From positions 1,550,001 to 1,614,000 of the forward strand of contig NZ_SBHM01000007.1 of assembly GCF_004028095.1 (NCBI RefSeq): a stretch of DNA of 64,000 nt, given 5' to 3'. How positions within the stretch are numbered: the first letter of the stretch is position 1; every line of letters starts with the position of its first letter. The notes below the pieces were generated by a model that did not search any database, was not told the origin of the DNA, and saw only the letters and a list, made by a program, of their open reading frames with translations. Below are positions 13,865 through 20,556 of this stretch, in pieces. A program made the position numbers and the translations under genes. This DNA comes from Paenarthrobacter ureafaciens (lineage in GTDB: Bacteria; Actinomycetota; Actinomycetes; Actinomycetales; Micrococcaceae).

Positions 13865-14467
13865 CTAACCCAACCGCCCGGGACGTCGACGGGGCTTTAA
13901 GGAAGAACTGCGGCTGGAAGGGCGATAGGCCACCTCCGGGCGCGCTGGACCGGACATCCATCCCGTAGGCGCTCCGTTGAGCGAAACGATCGCGTCGTGT
14001 TCGTCGGCGATAATTTCGCCGCGGCACGTGGCTTGCACCTGCATCGCACTGATCAGGCTGCCTCCGTGGAGGTGGTCCGCATCAGTGACCCTGTACGAGA
14101 AAGTCCTCATCATGGTCTGGCCCGGCTCCAGGCTTGGTACCTCCAACTCCTCGGATCCGGGGTTCGAGGTGTAGTTGAGCGAGTCCATGCCCTCGTTGGT
14201 GAAGGATCGCGGAATGAGGCGCACTTGCCTTAGGTGGCTGCGTGAGTCATTGGTGACCCATGCGGTGAAGATGACCGTATCGCCAGGTACGGCGTGCGTC
14301 CTGTCAGCCCTGTAAAGGAGGGCCACCCGGCCGGCATGCTTCTTGCGGCTCAAGGCTCCGGAACGCCGTCCGGGCAGGCCTCTCGCAACCTTTTCCGGCC
14401 GTCCCGGCGTGCCTTGATTCAGGGCGCGGACGAGCTTCAGCGTGTGGCGGTTACCGCGGAGGTCCAT
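13865..14467 (-). CDS. DUF11-like domain protein without signal peptide
   Basis: 200 residues. The first third is basic (RGNRHTLKLVRAL, GRRSGALSRKKHAG). The middle folds like a DUF11/beta-sandwich repeat: HAVPGDTVIFTAWVTNDS, then LEPGQTMMRTFSYRVTD and QVQATCRGEIIADEHDA. The C-terminus is again Arg- and Ser-rich. No signal peptide or membrane helix is visible, which is odd for a domain usually displayed outside the cell. The start is ATG 14467 with GAGG close upstream; a GTG at 14482 is possible. It is divergent from the sigma-factor fusion gene, with 58 bp between, and shares the domain type of both proteins encoded to its right. Confidence 0.6.
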   Translation of the reverse strand: MDLRGNRHTLKLVRALNQGTPGRPEKVARGLPGRRSGALSRKKHAGRVALLYRADRTHAVPGDTVIFTAWVTNDSRSHLRQVRLIPRSFTNEGMDSLNYTSNPGSEELEVPSLEPGQTMMRTFSYRVTDADHLHGGSLISAMQVQATCRGEIIADEHDAIVSLNGAPTGWMSGPARPEVAYRPSSRSSSLKPRRRPGRLG

Positions 14468-14525
14468 TGATCCTCGATCCACTTGGGGGCGTGATATTCC
14501 CCTTAGTGGGCCTTAGGGGCGAATC

Positions 14526-16220
14526 GTGACGCAGATGACGCGATCGTATTATCCGGTTACGCATCTTGTTTCAAGTGGCCCGCAATCTGATGTAACACTA
14601 TTGTTTGTGGATCAAGTATCGGAGGTCGGGGGTGACGGTGGTGCCCCGACCTTGGCGTTGGATGATTACACCGACCCCCAGGCGATCGCCCTGGTGCGGG
14701 AAGGCAGCCAGGAAGCCTTCGATGTCCTGTACCGGCGCCACTTGAACGCAGCCCTCTATGTCGCGCGGACGCAGGCTGACAATTTCAGCGATGCGGACGA
14801 CGTCGTGGCAGAGGCCTTCGCTTCCATTTACCAGTCGTTGACTGAGGGCAAAGGCCCCAAAGAGTACTTCCGATCCTATCTGCTCACCGTCGTTCGGCGC
14901 ACAGCCCACGACCGGAACCGCAAGTCGCGCCGAGTGCCGGTTGCGGGTGACAACGGCGTTCTGGACTCCGTCGTTATAGATGAAGACCGCATCATCAATG
15001 AATTCGAGTCAGCCGTCATGGCCAAGGCGTTCAGGTCATTGCCCGAGCGCTGGCAGGCAGTCCTGTGGCACATCGACATTGAAGGCTTGAAACCGGCGGC
15101 TGCGGCTCCTTTCATCGGGTTGAGCCCGAACGGCGTGTCGTCACTTGCCCTCAGGGCGCGGGAGGGCCTGCGGCAGGCGTACCTTCAGTTCCACATCGGC
15201 GGATCACCCGACGACGGGTGCGCAGAGTTCTCCAGCCAGTTGGGGAAGTATGCGCGGAACGCCTTGAAGCGCACTACCCGCGAAAAAGTGGACGCGCACT
15301 TGGCCGGCTGTGCCAAATGCACCGCCTTGCTCGTGGAACTCAACGACATTCAAAGCGGCATGCGCACGCTCCTGTTCCCGCTGCTCACGGGTGTTGCCTT
15401 CACTCCCGACGTCGTGGCGGCCTACTTGTCGGGGACAGCACCCCTTCCCGGAGGGACGTCTGTAGCAGCGGCTTCCAGTGATGCCCGGAGGTCCGGGAGC
15501 CCGGGAAAGATCACCGCCGCGGTGGTGGCGGGAGCCCTCGCTATTGCCGGGCTGGCTGCTGCGCTGGTCCCCACCGGTTCCGAGACGACGGCCGCACCGG
15601 ACTCCGCGACAGAAGCACCGCCCGCGGTCGTCGAGCCTTCCGCCACGCCTTCCGGCCGCGCCGAACCGCCGGCTGCCACCCCGACGTCGGTCCCTCCTGC
15701 GGCGGCCCCCACGGAACCTGCGGCGTCCCCGGCTCCGCGGCCCGCCGTCGTCGTGGTCCCGATTGCGCCCGCTGCTCCAAGGGCGGCATCGGTTGTGGAC
15801 TCACCGGTTGTTCTTTCGACGTCGACGCCCGCACCATCGAACGCAGCCTCCGTCCCGCCTGCCCGAACCGTTGACGCGACTTTCACCGCGGTTCGCGGTT
15901 CCATTCCCACGGAAAGGGAACTGAACCTCGTGTTCTCGCTGACGGGCAACGGGCCTGCGGAATCCGCCGAGGCAATCTTCAGCCTGCCGGAGCAAGCCAC
16001 GTTTGTTGCCGGCAAGACCACCAGCCCCGCGGGATGGACATGTTCCAGCGCGGCGGAAAACAGCCGGCAGGTCCGGTGTGCAACTCCTGCTCTTGATCCT
16101 CACGGCCTGGATTTCAAACTTGTGGTCGCCATGCCGGTAGCCGCGGACCGGGGCACCCTGCATTACCAGTTCGGCGGCCAGGGCATCGTCACCAAGACAT
16201 TCAGCAACGCCTTTCATTAG
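14526..16220 (+). CDS. ECF sigma factor fused to zinc-finger anti-sigma, TM and DUF11-like domain
   Basis: 564 residues. Sigma region 2 spans about residues 55-120 (EAFDVLYRRHLNAALYVART, then DADDVVAEAFASIYQSL). Region 4 is at about 165-225 (LPERWQAVLWHIDIEGLKPA, then GLSPNGVSSLALRAREGL). A zf-HC2 motif (VDAHLAGCAKC) follows near residue 255, one transmembrane helix (ITAAVVAGALAIAGLAAALV) at about 328-348, a Pro/Ala/Thr linker to about 450, and a C-terminal beta domain with GWTCSS and VRCATP. Sigma, anti-sigma and outside sensor are thus one chain, so activity probably depends on conformational change or proteolysis at the membrane. Some actinobacterial ECF groups carry C-terminal extensions of this general kind. 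GTG 14526 follows AGGGGCGAATC. The next gene, a DUF11-repeat protein, is the obvious target. Confidence 0.85.
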   Translation: MTQMTRSYYPVTHLVSSGPQSDVTLLFVDQVSEVGGDGGAPTLALDDYTDPQAIALVREGSQEAFDVLYRRHLNAALYVARTQADNFSDADDVVAEAFASIYQSLTEGKGPKEYFRSYLLTVVRRTAHDRNRKSRRVPVAGDNGVLDSVVIDEDRIINEFESAVMAKAFRSLPERWQAVLWHIDIEGLKPAAAAPFIGLSPNGVSSLALRAREGLRQAYLQFHIGGSPDDGCAEFSSQLGKYARNALKRTTREKVDAHLAGCAKCTALLVELNDIQSGMRTLLFPLLTGVAFTPDVVAAYLSGTAPLPGGTSVAAASSDARRSGSPGKITAAVVAGALAIAGLAAALVPTGSETTAAPDSATEAPPAVVEPSATPSGRAEPPAATPTSVPPAAAPTEPAASPAPRPAVVVVPIAPAAPRAASVVDSPVVLSTSTPAPSNAASVPPARTVDATFTAVRGSIPTERELNLVFSLTGNGPAESAEAIFSLPEQATFVAGKTTSPAGWTCSSAAENSRQVRCATPALDPHGLDFKLVVAMPVAADRGTLHYQFGGQGIVTKTFSNAFH

Positions 16221-16402
16221 CCAGCGCCTCGCGAATCCGGCCGCCAGACATGCCATCACCTCGTGGGTTGGCTGAATTAACCAAAAAACTTCGAAATTCG
16301 CGACACGAAAGCTGTCTTGCGCCCACAGATAAGTGGTGAGCCGACTGTCGGTCTCTACTGCTGAAGTATGCCGCAGCTTTCGGCGACACGAGTCTCCCGA
16401 AA

Positions 16403-16442
16403 CCGGCGCTAGCCAGGTGGCGTGCAACCACCGAAATGCCGG
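16403..16442 (+). ncRNA. Candidate structured leader hairpin 1
   Basis: In the 287 bp between the sigma fusion and the surface-protein gene, CCGGC (16403-16407) pairs with GCCGG (16438-16442), enclosing GGTGG (16416-16420) paired with CCACC (16428-16432) and a CGTGCAA loop. The asymmetric internal loops (GCTAGCCA and GAAAT) look like a folded RNA rather than a simple terminator. No known riboswitch consensus was recognised. Confidence 0.4.
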
Positions 16443-16507: not shown

Positions 16508-19500
16508 ATGAGACATTCCTTACCCATGAAGCTGCTGGCAAGTGTGCTCGCCACAGCTGTCTTTTCGATGGGGCTGGGTGGTGCATTAGCGTCATCAGCC
16601 TTGGCAACAACCCCAGGGGCGCCGGGTGTCGCACAATCCGGCACCGTTGTCTTCAACGAGGACTTCGAAAATGGGACGGATGACACCGCGCTTGGAGCCC
16701 AGTCCTATTCCGCCTCCGGATCAACCGCCTACACCGGGGCCTCAGGACAGATGTACACGGGGTCGCCTCAATGGATCAACGGGATTCGATGCAACGGCGT
16801 CATCCTGAGCCAGGACAACACCACCACACCCGCCTGGGCCGTCTCCGGAAGCGCCGGTACAGCCTCGAACAACCGTTGTGCCGATTCCAGCGGTGTTCGC
16901 AGCTACCAGTTCCTGCGCATGCTGGCGCTGGCCATGGGCCAGGAATTCACGCCCAACTCGCCCGCCACGAACCATGTAAACAGCTCGTACACCGAGTGCC
17001 GGTCCACCAGCACATCGAGTGGCACGTGCGATACCCTCCCCACGGGGCCCACCGACGGTCTCATGTTCAAAACAGCGGCGCCTATCGCAGTGGCTCCCGG
17101 TCACTACTACACGTTCGGTGTGGATACGGCGTACATGAACTGTGGCTTGCCGGCGGGGGACCCCTCCTATCAATTCGCACGGAGCGACGAACTCGGAAAC
17201 GTGACACTAATCGGCGCTCCCCTCAACGGCTGCCAATCGACAACGGATCCCAATGTCACCTCATCCGAGCAAGAAGTAACCAGCAACGTCGGCGGCGTCT
17301 TCGGCACTGTGACCAAGTCGGTCCGCATCAATTCCATGACCTCCGACGTTGCCTTCCAGGCAACCACCGAGTCGCTGGGCCTGGAGATGTGGAACACGAA
17401 TGGAACCACCGACGGCAACGACGGTGCCTTTGACAACGTGCGCTTGGTTGATGTCACGCCGCAGTTGGACAAGTCCTTTACCCCGGGCCTTATCGGTCCG
17501 GGCGGGACGTCCACCCTCACCCTGACAGTCACCAACACCGATGAACTCAATGCCAAGAGCGACTGGACCATCACGGACACTCTCCCTGCCGGCGTCGTCG
17601 TGGCCGATGTGCCGAACCTCGGCGGAACCTGCGTCCAGGCGCCGGGAACCGACCCGTTCCTGACGACGGCCAATCCCGGCGGCAACGTCATAACGGTGAC
17701 CGGCGGAGATCTGGCCTCCCGAATGGTGTCCTGCACTATCACCGTGGATGTCACCGCCGCGGCCGAAGGCACGTACGTCAACGGTCCTGCCAACATCGCG
17801 ACCAACCTGAACCCGCCGGCGGACGCCAGTCTGGTGGTCCGCGCTCCCCGCCTGGCACTGAGCAAAGCACTGGGCGCTGAACGAACGGCAGCCGCAGACC
17901 AGTTCACGGTTGAAATCCGTGAGGGCTCCGCCACGGGAACGGTGGTCAATAACACAGCTAACTCAACCACCACCGGCTCGGGCGCTGCCGTCTCGGCTGG
18001 TACCGGGGTTACGGGTCAGTATGTGGCCAACGCCGGTAGTACGTACTATCTCACCGAGTCGGGCCCCAACCTGTCGGGATACGCCAAGGCCATTAGTTGC
18101 ACGGATGCCAACGGTTTGCAGACAGGCCTGCCTCGCCGGGCAGCTTTCGGTGGTTCGTTGGAGTTGGTTCCGGTGGCCGGGGCGGATATCAGTTGCGTGC
18201 TGACCAACACAGCCGTTCAGGCCCCTCAGTTGACGTTTACCAAGATGGCCAACCCGTCCGGGATACAGTCCCCGTCGCAGGTTGGTGACGTGATTAGCTA
18301 CACGTTCACGGCCGCGAACAACGGTAACGTCGCGCTATCGGGCGTAGTCATTGACGACCCCCTGGCCGGCCTTTCGCCGTTGGTTTACGCCTGGCCCGGA
18401 ACTCCTGGAACGCTGCTTCCGGGCGAGACTGTCACAGCGACGGCAACGTATGCGATCACACAGGCCGACGTCGACGCCGGTCACGTTGCCAACTCAGCGG
18501 TAGCTACTGGTAATCCTCCTACCGGGCCTCCGTTAACGACGCCGCCGTCGGGTACGGATACTCCGTTGACCAAGGCTCCGGCGTTGCAGTTCAGCAAGAT
18601 GGCGGATACTTCGGCGATCCGCAAACCGGCCGTTGTTGGTGACGTCATCACGTACACGTTCACCGCAAGGAACACGGGCAACGTGAAGCTGACCAACGTG
18701 TCGATCGACGATCCCCTGGCAGGCCTTTCACCGTTGGTTTTCAGCTGGCCGGGAACTCCCGGTGAGCTGTTGCCGGGCGAGTCGGTCACGGCGAAGGCCA
18801 CGTACGCGATCACTCAGGCCGATATCAGCGCCGGTCACGTGGTCAACTCGGCGACGGTCACAGGCGCTCCGCCCACAGGTCCTGCTGTGACGCCGCCTCC
18901 GGGAACGACGGACACTCCGCTGACTCCGGCCCCGGGGCTGCAGCTTACGAAGACGGCTGATTCGAGCAGCGTTCAGGATCCGGCCAAGGTCGGTGACGTC
19001 ATCACGTACTCGTTTGCGGCGAAGAACACCGGAAACGTGAAGCTGACGGATGTGACGATCGATGATCCGCTGGCTGGGCTGTCCCCGCTGGTTTTCAGCT
19101 GGCCGGGCAACCCGGGGGAGTTGTTCCCGGGCGAGTCGGTCACGGCGAAGGCCACGTACGCGATCACCCAAGCGGACATCGACGCTGGCCACGTGGTCAA
19201 CTCGGCCACGATCACTGGTGCTCCGCCCGCAGGTCCCGCTGTGACGCCTCCTCCGGGAGTAACGGATACCCCGTTGACCTCTGCCCCGGCGATGGAATTC
19301 AGCAAGACAGCCACGGCCGCGGCATCTGATGGACCGTCCCGCGTGGGCGATCACATCGTCTACCGGTTCACGGCCAAGAACAACGGCAACGTGAAGCTGA
19401 ACAAAGTGTCGATTGATGACCAAATGGAAGGATTGTCGGCTCTGACCTACGTCTGGCCGGGCACCCCGGGGGAGTTGCTCCCGGGCGAGTCGGTCACGGC

Positions 19501-20140
19501 AGAGGCAACGTACACGGTCACGCAGGGGGATATCGACGCCGGTCACGTCGCCAACCTGGCGACCACCACGGGAACGCCACCTACGGGTCCCGTAGTTGCA
19601 CCGCCAGCTGCCGGCACCGACACTCCGTTGTCTCCAGACGCGGGTTTTGCGTTCTTCAAGACCGCTGACGGTTCCGCCATCGGAGATCCCGCGAAGGTCG
19701 GTGACATTATCACCTTCAACTTCACGGCGAAGAACACCGGCAACGTTGTCCTGACGGACGTCGCCATCCGGGACGCGATGCCCGGTTTGTCCGCGCTGGA
19801 TCACCGCTGGCCTGGAACTCCCGGCGTGCTGAACCCGGGTGAGACGGTCACTGCCAAGGCGACTTATGCGATCACCCAGGCGGACATTAATGCCGGCCAA
19901 GTGTTCAATACGGCCACGGCGTCGGCAGGTTCGACAACGGGAAGTCTGGTGTCAACGCCGCCGGCAAACGTTGTGATCAACTTCCCGACGACGGAGGCGA
20001 CGGGTCCGGACCGGGCTGAAGAACCGCTGGCCTTCACAGGTGTTGTCCTCACCGTGCTACCCATCAGTGTTCTGATAGTTGGCGCTGGCTTGGTCCTGTT
20101 CCTTGTGGGACGCCGTAAGAAGCAGGCAGCACGTCCATGA
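16508..20140 (+). CDS. DUF11-repeat surface protein with LAFTG sorting signal
   Basis: 1210 residues. A signal peptide ends near ASSALA (about residue 34). The N-terminal globular region (about 40-310) holds several Cys, followed by a DUF11 unit from about 317 (PQLDKSFTPGLIGPGGTSTL) and a SpaA/prealbumin-like unit from about 447. Five tandem units of 118-119 residues start near 570, 689, 807, 925 and 1044; each has a VGD.I.Y.FTAKN.GNV core and a WPGTPG...PGE(S/T)VTA turn. The C-terminus has LAFTG, a hydrophobic helix and RRKK, the form recognised by class E sortases. It is probably cell-wall-linked, perhaps an adhesin. The preceding membrane-tethered sigma factor ends in a related domain. Start ATG 16508; ATG 16526 is an alternative. 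Confidence 0.85.
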   Translation: MRHSLPMKLLASVLATAVFSMGLGGALASSALATTPGAPGVAQSGTVVFNEDFENGTDDTALGAQSYSASGSTAYTGASGQMYTGSPQWINGIRCNGVILSQDNTTTPAWAVSGSAGTASNNRCADSSGVRSYQFLRMLALAMGQEFTPNSPATNHVNSSYTECRSTSTSSGTCDTLPTGPTDGLMFKTAAPIAVAPGHYYTFGVDTAYMNCGLPAGDPSYQFARSDELGNVTLIGAPLNGCQSTTDPNVTSSEQEVTSNVGGVFGTVTKSVRINSMTSDVAFQATTESLGLEMWNTNGTTDGNDGAFDNVRLVDVTPQLDKSFTPGLIGPGGTSTLTLTVTNTDELNAKSDWTITDTLPAGVVVADVPNLGGTCVQAPGTDPFLTTANPGGNVITVTGGDLASRMVSCTITVDVTAAAEGTYVNGPANIATNLNPPADASLVVRAPRLALSKALGAERTAAADQFTVEIREGSATGTVVNNTANSTTTGSGAAVSAGTGVTGQYVANAGSTYYLTESGPNLSGYAKAISCTDANGLQTGLPRRAAFGGSLELVPVAGADISCVLTNTAVQAPQLTFTKMANPSGIQSPSQVGDVISYTFTAANNGNVALSGVVIDDPLAGLSPLVYAWPGTPGTLLPGETVTATATYAITQADVDAGHVANSAVATGNPPTGPPLTTPPSGTDTPLTKAPALQFSKMADTSAIRKPAVVGDVITYTFTARNTGNVKLTNVSIDDPLAGLSPLVFSWPGTPGELLPGESVTAKATYAITQADISAGHVVNSATVTGAPPTGPAVTPPPGTTDTPLTPAPGLQLTKTADSSSVQDPAKVGDVITYSFAAKNTGNVKLTDVTIDDPLAGLSPLVFSWPGNPGELFPGESVTAKATYAITQADIDAGHVVNSATITGAPPAGPAVTPPPGVTDTPLTSAPAMEFSKTATAAASDGPSRVGDHIVYRFTAKNNGNVKLNKVSIDDQMEGLSALTYVWPGTPGELLPGESVTAEATYTVTQGDIDAGHVANLATTTGTPPTGPVVAPPAAGTDTPLSPDAGFAFFKTADGSAIGDPAKVGDIITFNFTAKNTGNVVLTDVAIRDAMPGLSALDHRWPGTPGVLNPGETVTAKATYAITQADINAGQVFNTATASAGSTTGSLVSTPPANVVINFPTTEATGPDRAEEPLAFTGVVLTVLPISVLIVGAGLVLFLVGRRKKQAARP
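18217..19980 (+). repeat. Five tandem coding repeats of about 354-357 bp
   Basis: Within the surface-protein gene, five copies of a DUF11-type unit begin near 18217, 18576, 18930, 19284 and 19641. Copies 2 and 3 are nearly identical over long stretches in protein and DNA (for example GESVTAKATYAITQAD in both). This points to recent duplication or gene conversion; copies 1, 4 and 5 are more diverged. Confidence 0.8.
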
Positions 20141-20556
20141 AGAAGTCAGTCGCGTGCATGACAGCGCTACTCATGTCGGCAGTGCTTGCCGGCTGTTCGT
20201 CGTCTGGAAGCGGCGGCCAGTCGCCGTCGAACACTACAACGCAAGCGGCTACTACTGGTGAGGCAAAGCCGGCGAACCCGGGCACCGGGATCATCGAAGC
20301 CGCCAAGATGACCTCCTGTGATACCGCCACCGGCAAAGTGACAGCCAAGGGGATCGTGACTCCGCCGGACGGCATCAAGGGCACCGTCAAGGTCTCGGTG
20401 AGTTGGGTGGACCCGGCAACCTCGGTAGTACTGGCACGCGGCGAGCGATCGTTCACGGGTGCTCAGCCGGGGAAGGCTTTGGATTGGTCGGTTGAAGCTG
20501 AAATCGCCAAGCCAGGGACAGAGGCCAAGTGCGTCCTCGGAGCCAGCGTGCTGTAG
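20137..20556 (+). CDS. Small lipoprotein translated with the surface protein
   Basis: 139 residues. The N-terminus MKKSVACMTALLMSAVLAGC ends in a lipobox (LAGC), followed by a Ser/Gly/Thr-rich linker, so the mature protein should be lipid-anchored outside the cell. The remaining about 85 residues form a beta-rich domain with two Cys (KMTSCDTATGKV and EAKCVLGAS) that may form a disulfide. ATG overlaps the stop of the surface-protein gene (ATGA), so the two are made together. Family not recognised; a partner or assembly factor for the surface protein is inferred from coupling only. Confidence 0.75.
   Translation: MKKSVACMTALLMSAVLAGCSSSGSGGQSPSNTTTQAATTGEAKPANPGTGIIEAAKMTSCDTATGKVTAKGIVTPPDGIKGTVKVSVSWVDPATSVVLARGERSFTGAQPGKALDWSVEAEIAKPGTEAKCVLGASVL

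Follow-up and report, generated by a model that had tools for sequence, protein, structure and literature searches.

How Gram-positive bacteria know that a surface fibre or a wall-anchored protein has been built or engaged is, to our knowledge, a largely open question. A locus of the soil bacterium Paenarthrobacter ureafaciens raises it in compact form: a putative sensor, an anti-sigma domain, a sigma factor and a candidate target gene lie side by side together with a promoter-like motif, which makes for a short and testable path. The locus lies in a stretch of 64,000 nucleotides that we call the window (contig NZ_SBHM01000007.1, positions 1,550,001 to 1,614,000). The original prediction, made from the letters of the window, described a membrane-held sigma factor that reads cell-surface assembly. 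Does this protein sense the surface structure encoded next to it? We think that it does, with a probability of about 0.58; on this reading the protein is a membrane-tethered ECF sigma factor of the one-component kind, which would monitor its own surface structure and regulate the genes for it.

The frame at 14526-16220 on the forward strand runs uninterrupted for 564 codons in the ORF listing of the window. It is a real gene, since one relative of its product (561 aa) is 97% identical and many others are 50-58% identical. All five predicted parts are present in this single frame, but the predicted length of 564 residues is probably too long and 537 aa the better figure. Relatives begin with M(D)QV..., and in the alignment of locus DNA their ATG falls on the GTG at 14607 of the window. 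This start is preferred to 14526 because of that alignment, because the DNA upstream of it is a conserved non-coding block, and because the longer frame would overlap a motif on the opposite strand (14505-14531). The parts of the gene are as follows, with residues counted in the 564-codon frame:

14607..16220 (+): gene for the sigma, anti-sigma, transmembrane and outer domains; likely start GTG 14607, longest frame from 14526
14712..15179 (+): ECF sigma domain, regions 2 to 4 (residues 63-218; TIGR02937)
15219..15320 (+): zf-HC2 anti-sigma motif C-x25-H-x3-C-x2-C (Pfam match, ligand residues located)
15510..15566 (+): single transmembrane helix, residues 329-347 (hydropathy scan)
15567..15860 (+): Pro/Ala-rich linker of 98 residues, 24 Pro and 24 Ala (sequence composition)
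15867..16217 (+): outer domain with an invariant Trp and two Cys, without a Pfam match (alignment and Pfam search)
14570..14599 (+): conserved TTCAAGT...CACT block just 5' of the likely sigma start (alignment), unlike the main motif described below

The protein has regions 2 and 4 and no region 3, as expected of an ECF sigma factor. The whole-domain model sigma70-ECF (TIGR02937) scored 61.8 bits against a cut-off of 42.9, and region 2 scored 41 bits against a Pfam cut-off of 24, but region 4 by itself stayed below its cut-off (17.8 vs 25.7 bits), so that the predicted pair of regions holds for the domain as a whole and for region 2 separately. The zf-HC2 match (28.6 bits, cut-off 22.2, residues 232-265) bears out the predicted anti-sigma motif, as do the hydropathy scan and the composition for the single helix and the Pro-rich linker. 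The pattern C-x20..34-H-x3-C-x2-C occurs in 81 of 82 family proteins. The TTCAAGT...CACT block may possibly be the promoter of the sigma gene itself.

This protein is built like an ECF52, which is a known type of layout. ECF52 proteins are described as a sigma factor followed by a zinc finger, a transmembrane helix, a Pro-rich stretch and a carbohydrate-binding module, and the window protein has the same order in one chain, ending in an outer domain; ECF48 and ECF53 are compared alongside (PMC5826349, PMC8999054). Some ECF52 and ECF53 proteins are said to carry glycosyl hydrolase and carbohydrate-binding domains (PMC10766802), and an uncharacterised protease has been suggested to free SCO4117, an ECF52 of Streptomyces coelicolor, from the membrane (PMC5826349). 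The original prediction had named an existing ECF group with exactly this architecture as the finding that would count against it, and ECF52 comes close: the order is the same, but it is described as ending in the carbohydrate-binding module (PMC5826349). In the window protein the C-terminal zinc finger, the helix after it and the long proline-rich extension are all found, but none of 25 outer domains of the family matched a carbohydrate-binding family in Pfam at E<=1; for this reason we do not file it as an ECF52, and the comparison is one of described layouts. Unlike ECF52, the window family is paired with sortase-anchored proteins or pili, and in some relatives a pilin stands in the sensor position.

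Two other systems share part of this design. IutY of Pseudomonas putida (ECF243) likewise holds sigma and anti-sigma factors in one membrane-bound chain and is freed by Prc and RseP, but it serves cell-surface signalling in iron starvation with a siderophore as the signal, and its description in PMC8999054 makes no mention of a zf-HC2, Pro-linker and outer-domain layout. In the SigI/RsgI pairs of cellulolytic clostridia, the extracytoplasmic sensory module of the anti-sigma factor likewise fits the product of the regulon; those, unlike the window family, are described as two separate proteins with a SigI-type sigma factor and a polysaccharide signal (PMC6056542). A search of the open-licence PubMed Central literature found no report of sigma factors of the window layout controlling sortase-anchored proteins.

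The genes on either side of the sigma gene in the window are these:

16508..20140 (+): surface protein of 1210 aa with a signal helix, DUF7933, SpaA_3, five DUF7507 repeats and an LAFTG sorting signal (frame and Pfam); the gene directly 3' of the sigma gene
13865..14482 (-): divergent 205-aa protein with a weak DUF7507/DUF11 match (Pfam); upstream of the sigma gene

The divergent 205-aa protein showed neither a transmembrane nor a signal helix in the hydropathy scan, so it has a surface-type domain apparently without a secretion signal.

This arrangement recurs. A contig scan gave 178 confirmed relatives, of which the best 80 were kept (79 distinct loci), and a tree was made from 82 sigma domains. 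The window belongs to clade A (24 rows, the window and L004-L026; support 89/91). Among the 23 other loci of this clade, 22 have a surface-protein or pilus-tip homologue directly downstream, which in L026 overlaps the end of the sigma gene, and 18 have the small divergent gene beside the sigma gene. The lone exception to the downstream pairing, L010, has lost its surface gene and still carries the main motif at the vacant place. Pilus operons with tip, pilin and sortase genes adjoin family sigma genes in L011, L032, L167, L173 and plasmid L117; plasmid L119 has a pilus operon too, and the sigma factor paired with it is less similar, its zinc finger falling below the cut-off. By a simple pattern, genes for sorting signals lie within 3 kb in 14 of 23 loci of clade A, 5 of 9 of clade C and 3 of 12 of clade B, in none of six from Sinomonas and relatives, and in one of 28 distant loci (Pseudonocardiaceae/Promicromonosporaceae). 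Locus L059 was left out of the clade groups in these counts and in the clade-by-clade motif counts below.

The window's own genome holds two further sigma relatives. One is a short chain of 261 aa (L003). The other, a paralogue at L083:7501-9189, is divergent to an LASTG-anchored Big_8 protein and has motifs at its locus; five of the nine loci of clade C share this arrangement. The pairing does not work in reverse. We rejected the idea that every pilus operon has such a sigma factor, as only one of eight pilin loci picked by pilin similarity (L154) has a nearby sigma gene, with other frames in between, and no such gene is near the two pilin loci of the window's own genome.

A divergent neighbour of the paralogue's sigma gene, L083:6615-7538 (-), encodes a protein of about 250 aa without a Pfam match. 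Its relatives adjoin sigma genes in clade C, L026, some Sinomonas and other genera, and in several loci the motif lies 5' of the gene.

The clearest pointer to what the outer part might sense comes from Arthrobacter. In six genomes (L004-L009) the sigma chain continues past the linker as a complete SpaA-type major pilin, sorting signal included, which stands in place of the outer domain. The domain search for L004 shows GramPos_pilinD1, pilinBB and SpaA. These features, with the pilin-motif lysine and a mostly LPxTG signal, are those of sortase-assembled SpaA-type pilins; they belong to the fused relatives L004-L009 and not to the window protein. As at other SpaA-type pilus loci, the neighbouring operon has homologues of the tip protein, the free pilin and the sortase, downstream of the fusion in all six. 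The fusions occupy the same slot as the window gene, with an acyltransferase gene 1.9-3.0 kb upstream in 6 of 6 and, in the sole locus that reaches far enough (L006), decarboxylase and monooxygenase genes after it. We know of no other pilin with an N-terminal sigma factor, and the open-licence PubMed Central literature yielded no report of a sigma-pilin fusion.

The fusion was found in at least 16 protein clusters among the 120 matches listed of 442 in a protein database. One open frame in six assembled genomes and in these clusters, two of which are incomplete at the end, led us to discard annotation error as an explanation. The pilin-motif lysine (VYPK) is kept in all six loci and all 16 listed clusters, two sets that overlap. 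LPxTG is present in 13 of the 14 listed clusters with complete ends, the remaining one having LPFAG, and in four of the six loci (LPFAG in L004, LATTG in L008); here too clusters and loci overlap. Searched with the fusion protein, 100 separately sampled family genomes contained none that was whole: 17 gave matches at 1e-60, every one of them to either the sigma or the pilin part and none to both in full. We therefore do not regard the fusion as widespread.

The fused pilin is under purifying selection. Over 15 pairs, dN/dS was 0.14-0.24 for the fused pilin, 0.13-0.21 for the free pilin and 0.09-0.16 for the fused sigma part, values that speak against a dead copy. The sigma tree places the fusions within clade A, next to L010 (100/99), with a support of 92/59 for their own group; L010 keeps the usual outer domain. 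In the fusions, then, the product of the adjacent operon has taken the place of that domain. Fused and free pilins of the same locus are 80-93% identical with the last 60 columns excluded. In the pilin tree they do not form two clean groups, with several weak forks, so gene conversion or repeated exchange between them is likely as far as the tree goes. In L009 the free and fused pilins group together at 93% identity, which hints that gene conversion has linked the pilus operon and the sigma gene.

The swap makes it moderately likely that the outer part senses the surface structure, and it lends indirect support to the predicted reading of surface assembly. The accompanying claim, a DUF11-like sensor of the same type as the domains of the downstream surface protein, failed. 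From 44 C-terminal ends we retained 25 outer domains, the others being near-duplicates or lacking the domain; the alignment has nine invariant columns, among them one Trp and two Cys. None of the 25 matched DUF11 in Pfam at E<=1, and when their profiles were compared with those of the downstream proteins' DUF7933 and DUF7507 domains, the probabilities were 0.1-3.4%. An HMM of the outer domain, searched against 7887 open frames from the loci, matched 45 sigma proteins; of ten matches beyond the sigma set, the sole one with E<0.9 is the split-off end of a sigma factor (L039). On these three lines we drop the claim that the window's outer domain is homologous to DUF11, although the two may possibly share a fold. 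A search of a large protein database, a weak test, gave two proteins among 292 candidates, and both are sigma factors. We found this two-cysteine domain only in such sigma factors within the data searched.

Other relatives carry different domains at this position. The distant Isoptericola relative L077 has DUF11 after the transmembrane helix (34.2 bits, cut-off 24.6) and is the only one above the cut-off, with L068 just below it (24.5 vs 24.6); a Streptomyces relative has a ricin-type lectin (46.2 vs 25.6 bits), and one on an Arthrobacter plasmid has a weak Big_6 match below the cut-off. We take the outer part of the architecture to be exchangeable on these grounds.

Could the outer domain instead be an ECF52-like sensor of glycan or wall, binding polysaccharide or a part of peptidoglycan, with the surface protein merely one of its outputs? 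We consider this unlikely but worth weighing. The lectin of the Streptomyces relative, the last domain described for ECF52 (PMC5826349) and the missing homology between the outer domain and the downstream protein would all fit it. The failure of all 25 outer domains to match a carbohydrate-binding family argues against it, and a swap for the neighbouring pilus's own pilin is hard to fit. A sensor of redox state or envelope stress is more improbable still; here oxidation or misfolding would be reported by the two cysteines or by the zinc site, and the surface genes would belong to a stress response. It would explain the invariance of both cysteines and the zinc anti-sigma motif, but the pilin-fused form lacks this outer domain and is retained under purifying selection, and the neighbours of family sigma genes are surface proteins, with no redox genes among them.

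A promoter-like motif clusters at these loci. We noticed it as a repeated block in aligned spacers of clade A (the window and 20 loci). In the window it occurs as:

14505..14531 (-): perfect copy of CGWCAC-N17-CACT before the divergent gene (motif search)
16301..16327 (+): copy 1 before the surface gene, one mismatch (alignment and motif search)
16384..16410 (+): copy 2 before the surface gene, one mismatch (alignment and motif search)

Across the 79 loci CG[AT]CAC-N17-CACT was found 56 times near sigma genes (408 kb) and six times elsewhere (1178 kb), counts that overstate the number of events because orthologous loci are not independent. It is near the sigma gene in 32 of the 79 loci. Control spacers of 10-16 and 18-24 nt gave 0-8 near matches and altered cores 0-10. 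Since the motif was derived from clade A, the tests that count are clade C, with 19 near matches and none far (10 loci including the own-genome paralogue), and nine loci added later, with 12 near and none far (present in 6 of 9); L162, L171 and L172 had been dropped from twelve later loci because their contigs have the same lengths as those of L026, L067 and L043, which were already in use. Clade B had three near and two far (12 loci), and 34 more distant loci two and two. With a spacer of 19 nt, the same half-sites occurred eight times near and five times elsewhere in 34 distant loci (L051-L082), which may reflect a variant form of the promoter or conservation of coding sequence.

The sites lie 5' of the surface gene, twice in several loci, 5' of the divergent gene, and 5' of the pilus operons of L011, L167 and L173. 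On plasmid L117 there is no motif directly before the pilus operon, and one precedes the gene between the operon and the sigma gene. Judged by sequence, the motif is placed as an ECF promoter would be, before surface or pilus genes and the divergent gene. An ATG follows CACT by about 8 nt at several sites, which suggests leaderless transcripts. The fixed spacing and the co-location make it likely that this sigma factor reads CGWCAC-N17-CACT. SCO4117 has a putative motif, CSGYN-17bp-SRHA, which also has a 17-bp spacer but differs from ours. For a GGAAC-N17-GTT promoter the window has 4 sites where 1.75 were expected; as 12 of 100 shuffles had at least that many, the excess is not clear.

The idea that the window's own genome has a large regulon found no support. 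There are five perfect matches, two of them at sigma loci and three with downstream frames that are 339 and 142 nt away or absent, and with up to one mismatch there are 39 matches against 47 for the control. In the absence of a genome-wide excess the regulon looks small and local. The least probable alternative is that the motif serves another regulator or sigma factor, that this one has other targets and that the pairing is inherited linkage: it would account for a clade A block before the sigma gene that differs from the motif, for a motif that is promoter-like by its letters and for matches at many orthologous loci, but not easily for a motif of fixed 17-nt spacing that clusters tightly around paralogous sigma genes of several genera, nor for the copy that in clade C also precedes the sigma gene itself, a position common for autoregulated ECFs.

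We return to a sigma factor that senses its own surface structure. Anti-sigma factors of the zf-HC2 type are established as holding sigma factors, and here the zf-HC2 domain would hold the cytoplasmic sigma domain of its own chain inactive in cis. The transmembrane helix and the Pro/Ala linker would carry the two-cysteine domain out to the wall zone, where it might sense the presence, assembly or load of the wall-anchored structure encoded by the neighbouring genes; the signal and its sign we infer. The sigma part might then be freed, either through intramembrane proteolysis or because the zinc domain changes. An M50 protease is present in the genome, and in a control such proteins occurred in 14 of 14 genomes. 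Once free, the sigma factor would start transcription at the CGWCAC-N17-CACT sites that precede the divergent gene and the surface gene or pilus operon. On this view, a copy of the major pilin of the adjacent pilus took over the sensor position in one lineage of Arthrobacter.

The predicted tie between a membrane-held sigma factor and the downstream surface gene is upheld by the clade A pairing and by the fixed-spacer motif before that gene; motif clustering, the motif left at L010, the own-genome paralogue and the pilin swap also speak for the proposed sensing. Against it, both surface-gene copies in the window have a mismatch, the motif has no excess in the genome and is weak in clade B and distant loci, and sorting-signal genes are few outside clades A and C. 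Only one of eight pilin loci has such a sigma factor, and the outer domain shows no homology to the downstream protein or its repeats.

What this adds to the original prediction is the motif at these loci and the pilin swap; the layout itself was already known from ECF52. The pilin-fused form joins a structural subunit and a transcription factor in one chain, and if it works as proposed, a surface structure would report on itself without a separate receptor. In sortase pili the pilin-motif lysine accepts the growing pilus. A bolder and rather doubtful version, which we offer tentatively, is that the fused form in Arthrobacter is both a pilus subunit and the base of the fibre, its lysine accepting the pilus while the N-terminal part spans the membrane and keeps hold of the sigma domain, so that pull on the pilus or its completion is passed to transcription of the pilus operon; the window protein would then be an older, non-covalent form. 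If that is true, the chain would be a covalent wire from pilus to promoter.

Beyond the surface gene of the window and ahead of siderophore-type genes, 20137-20556 (+) encodes a protein of 139 aa whose start is of the lipoprotein type. The same protein is also present in L013, L016, L024 and L025.
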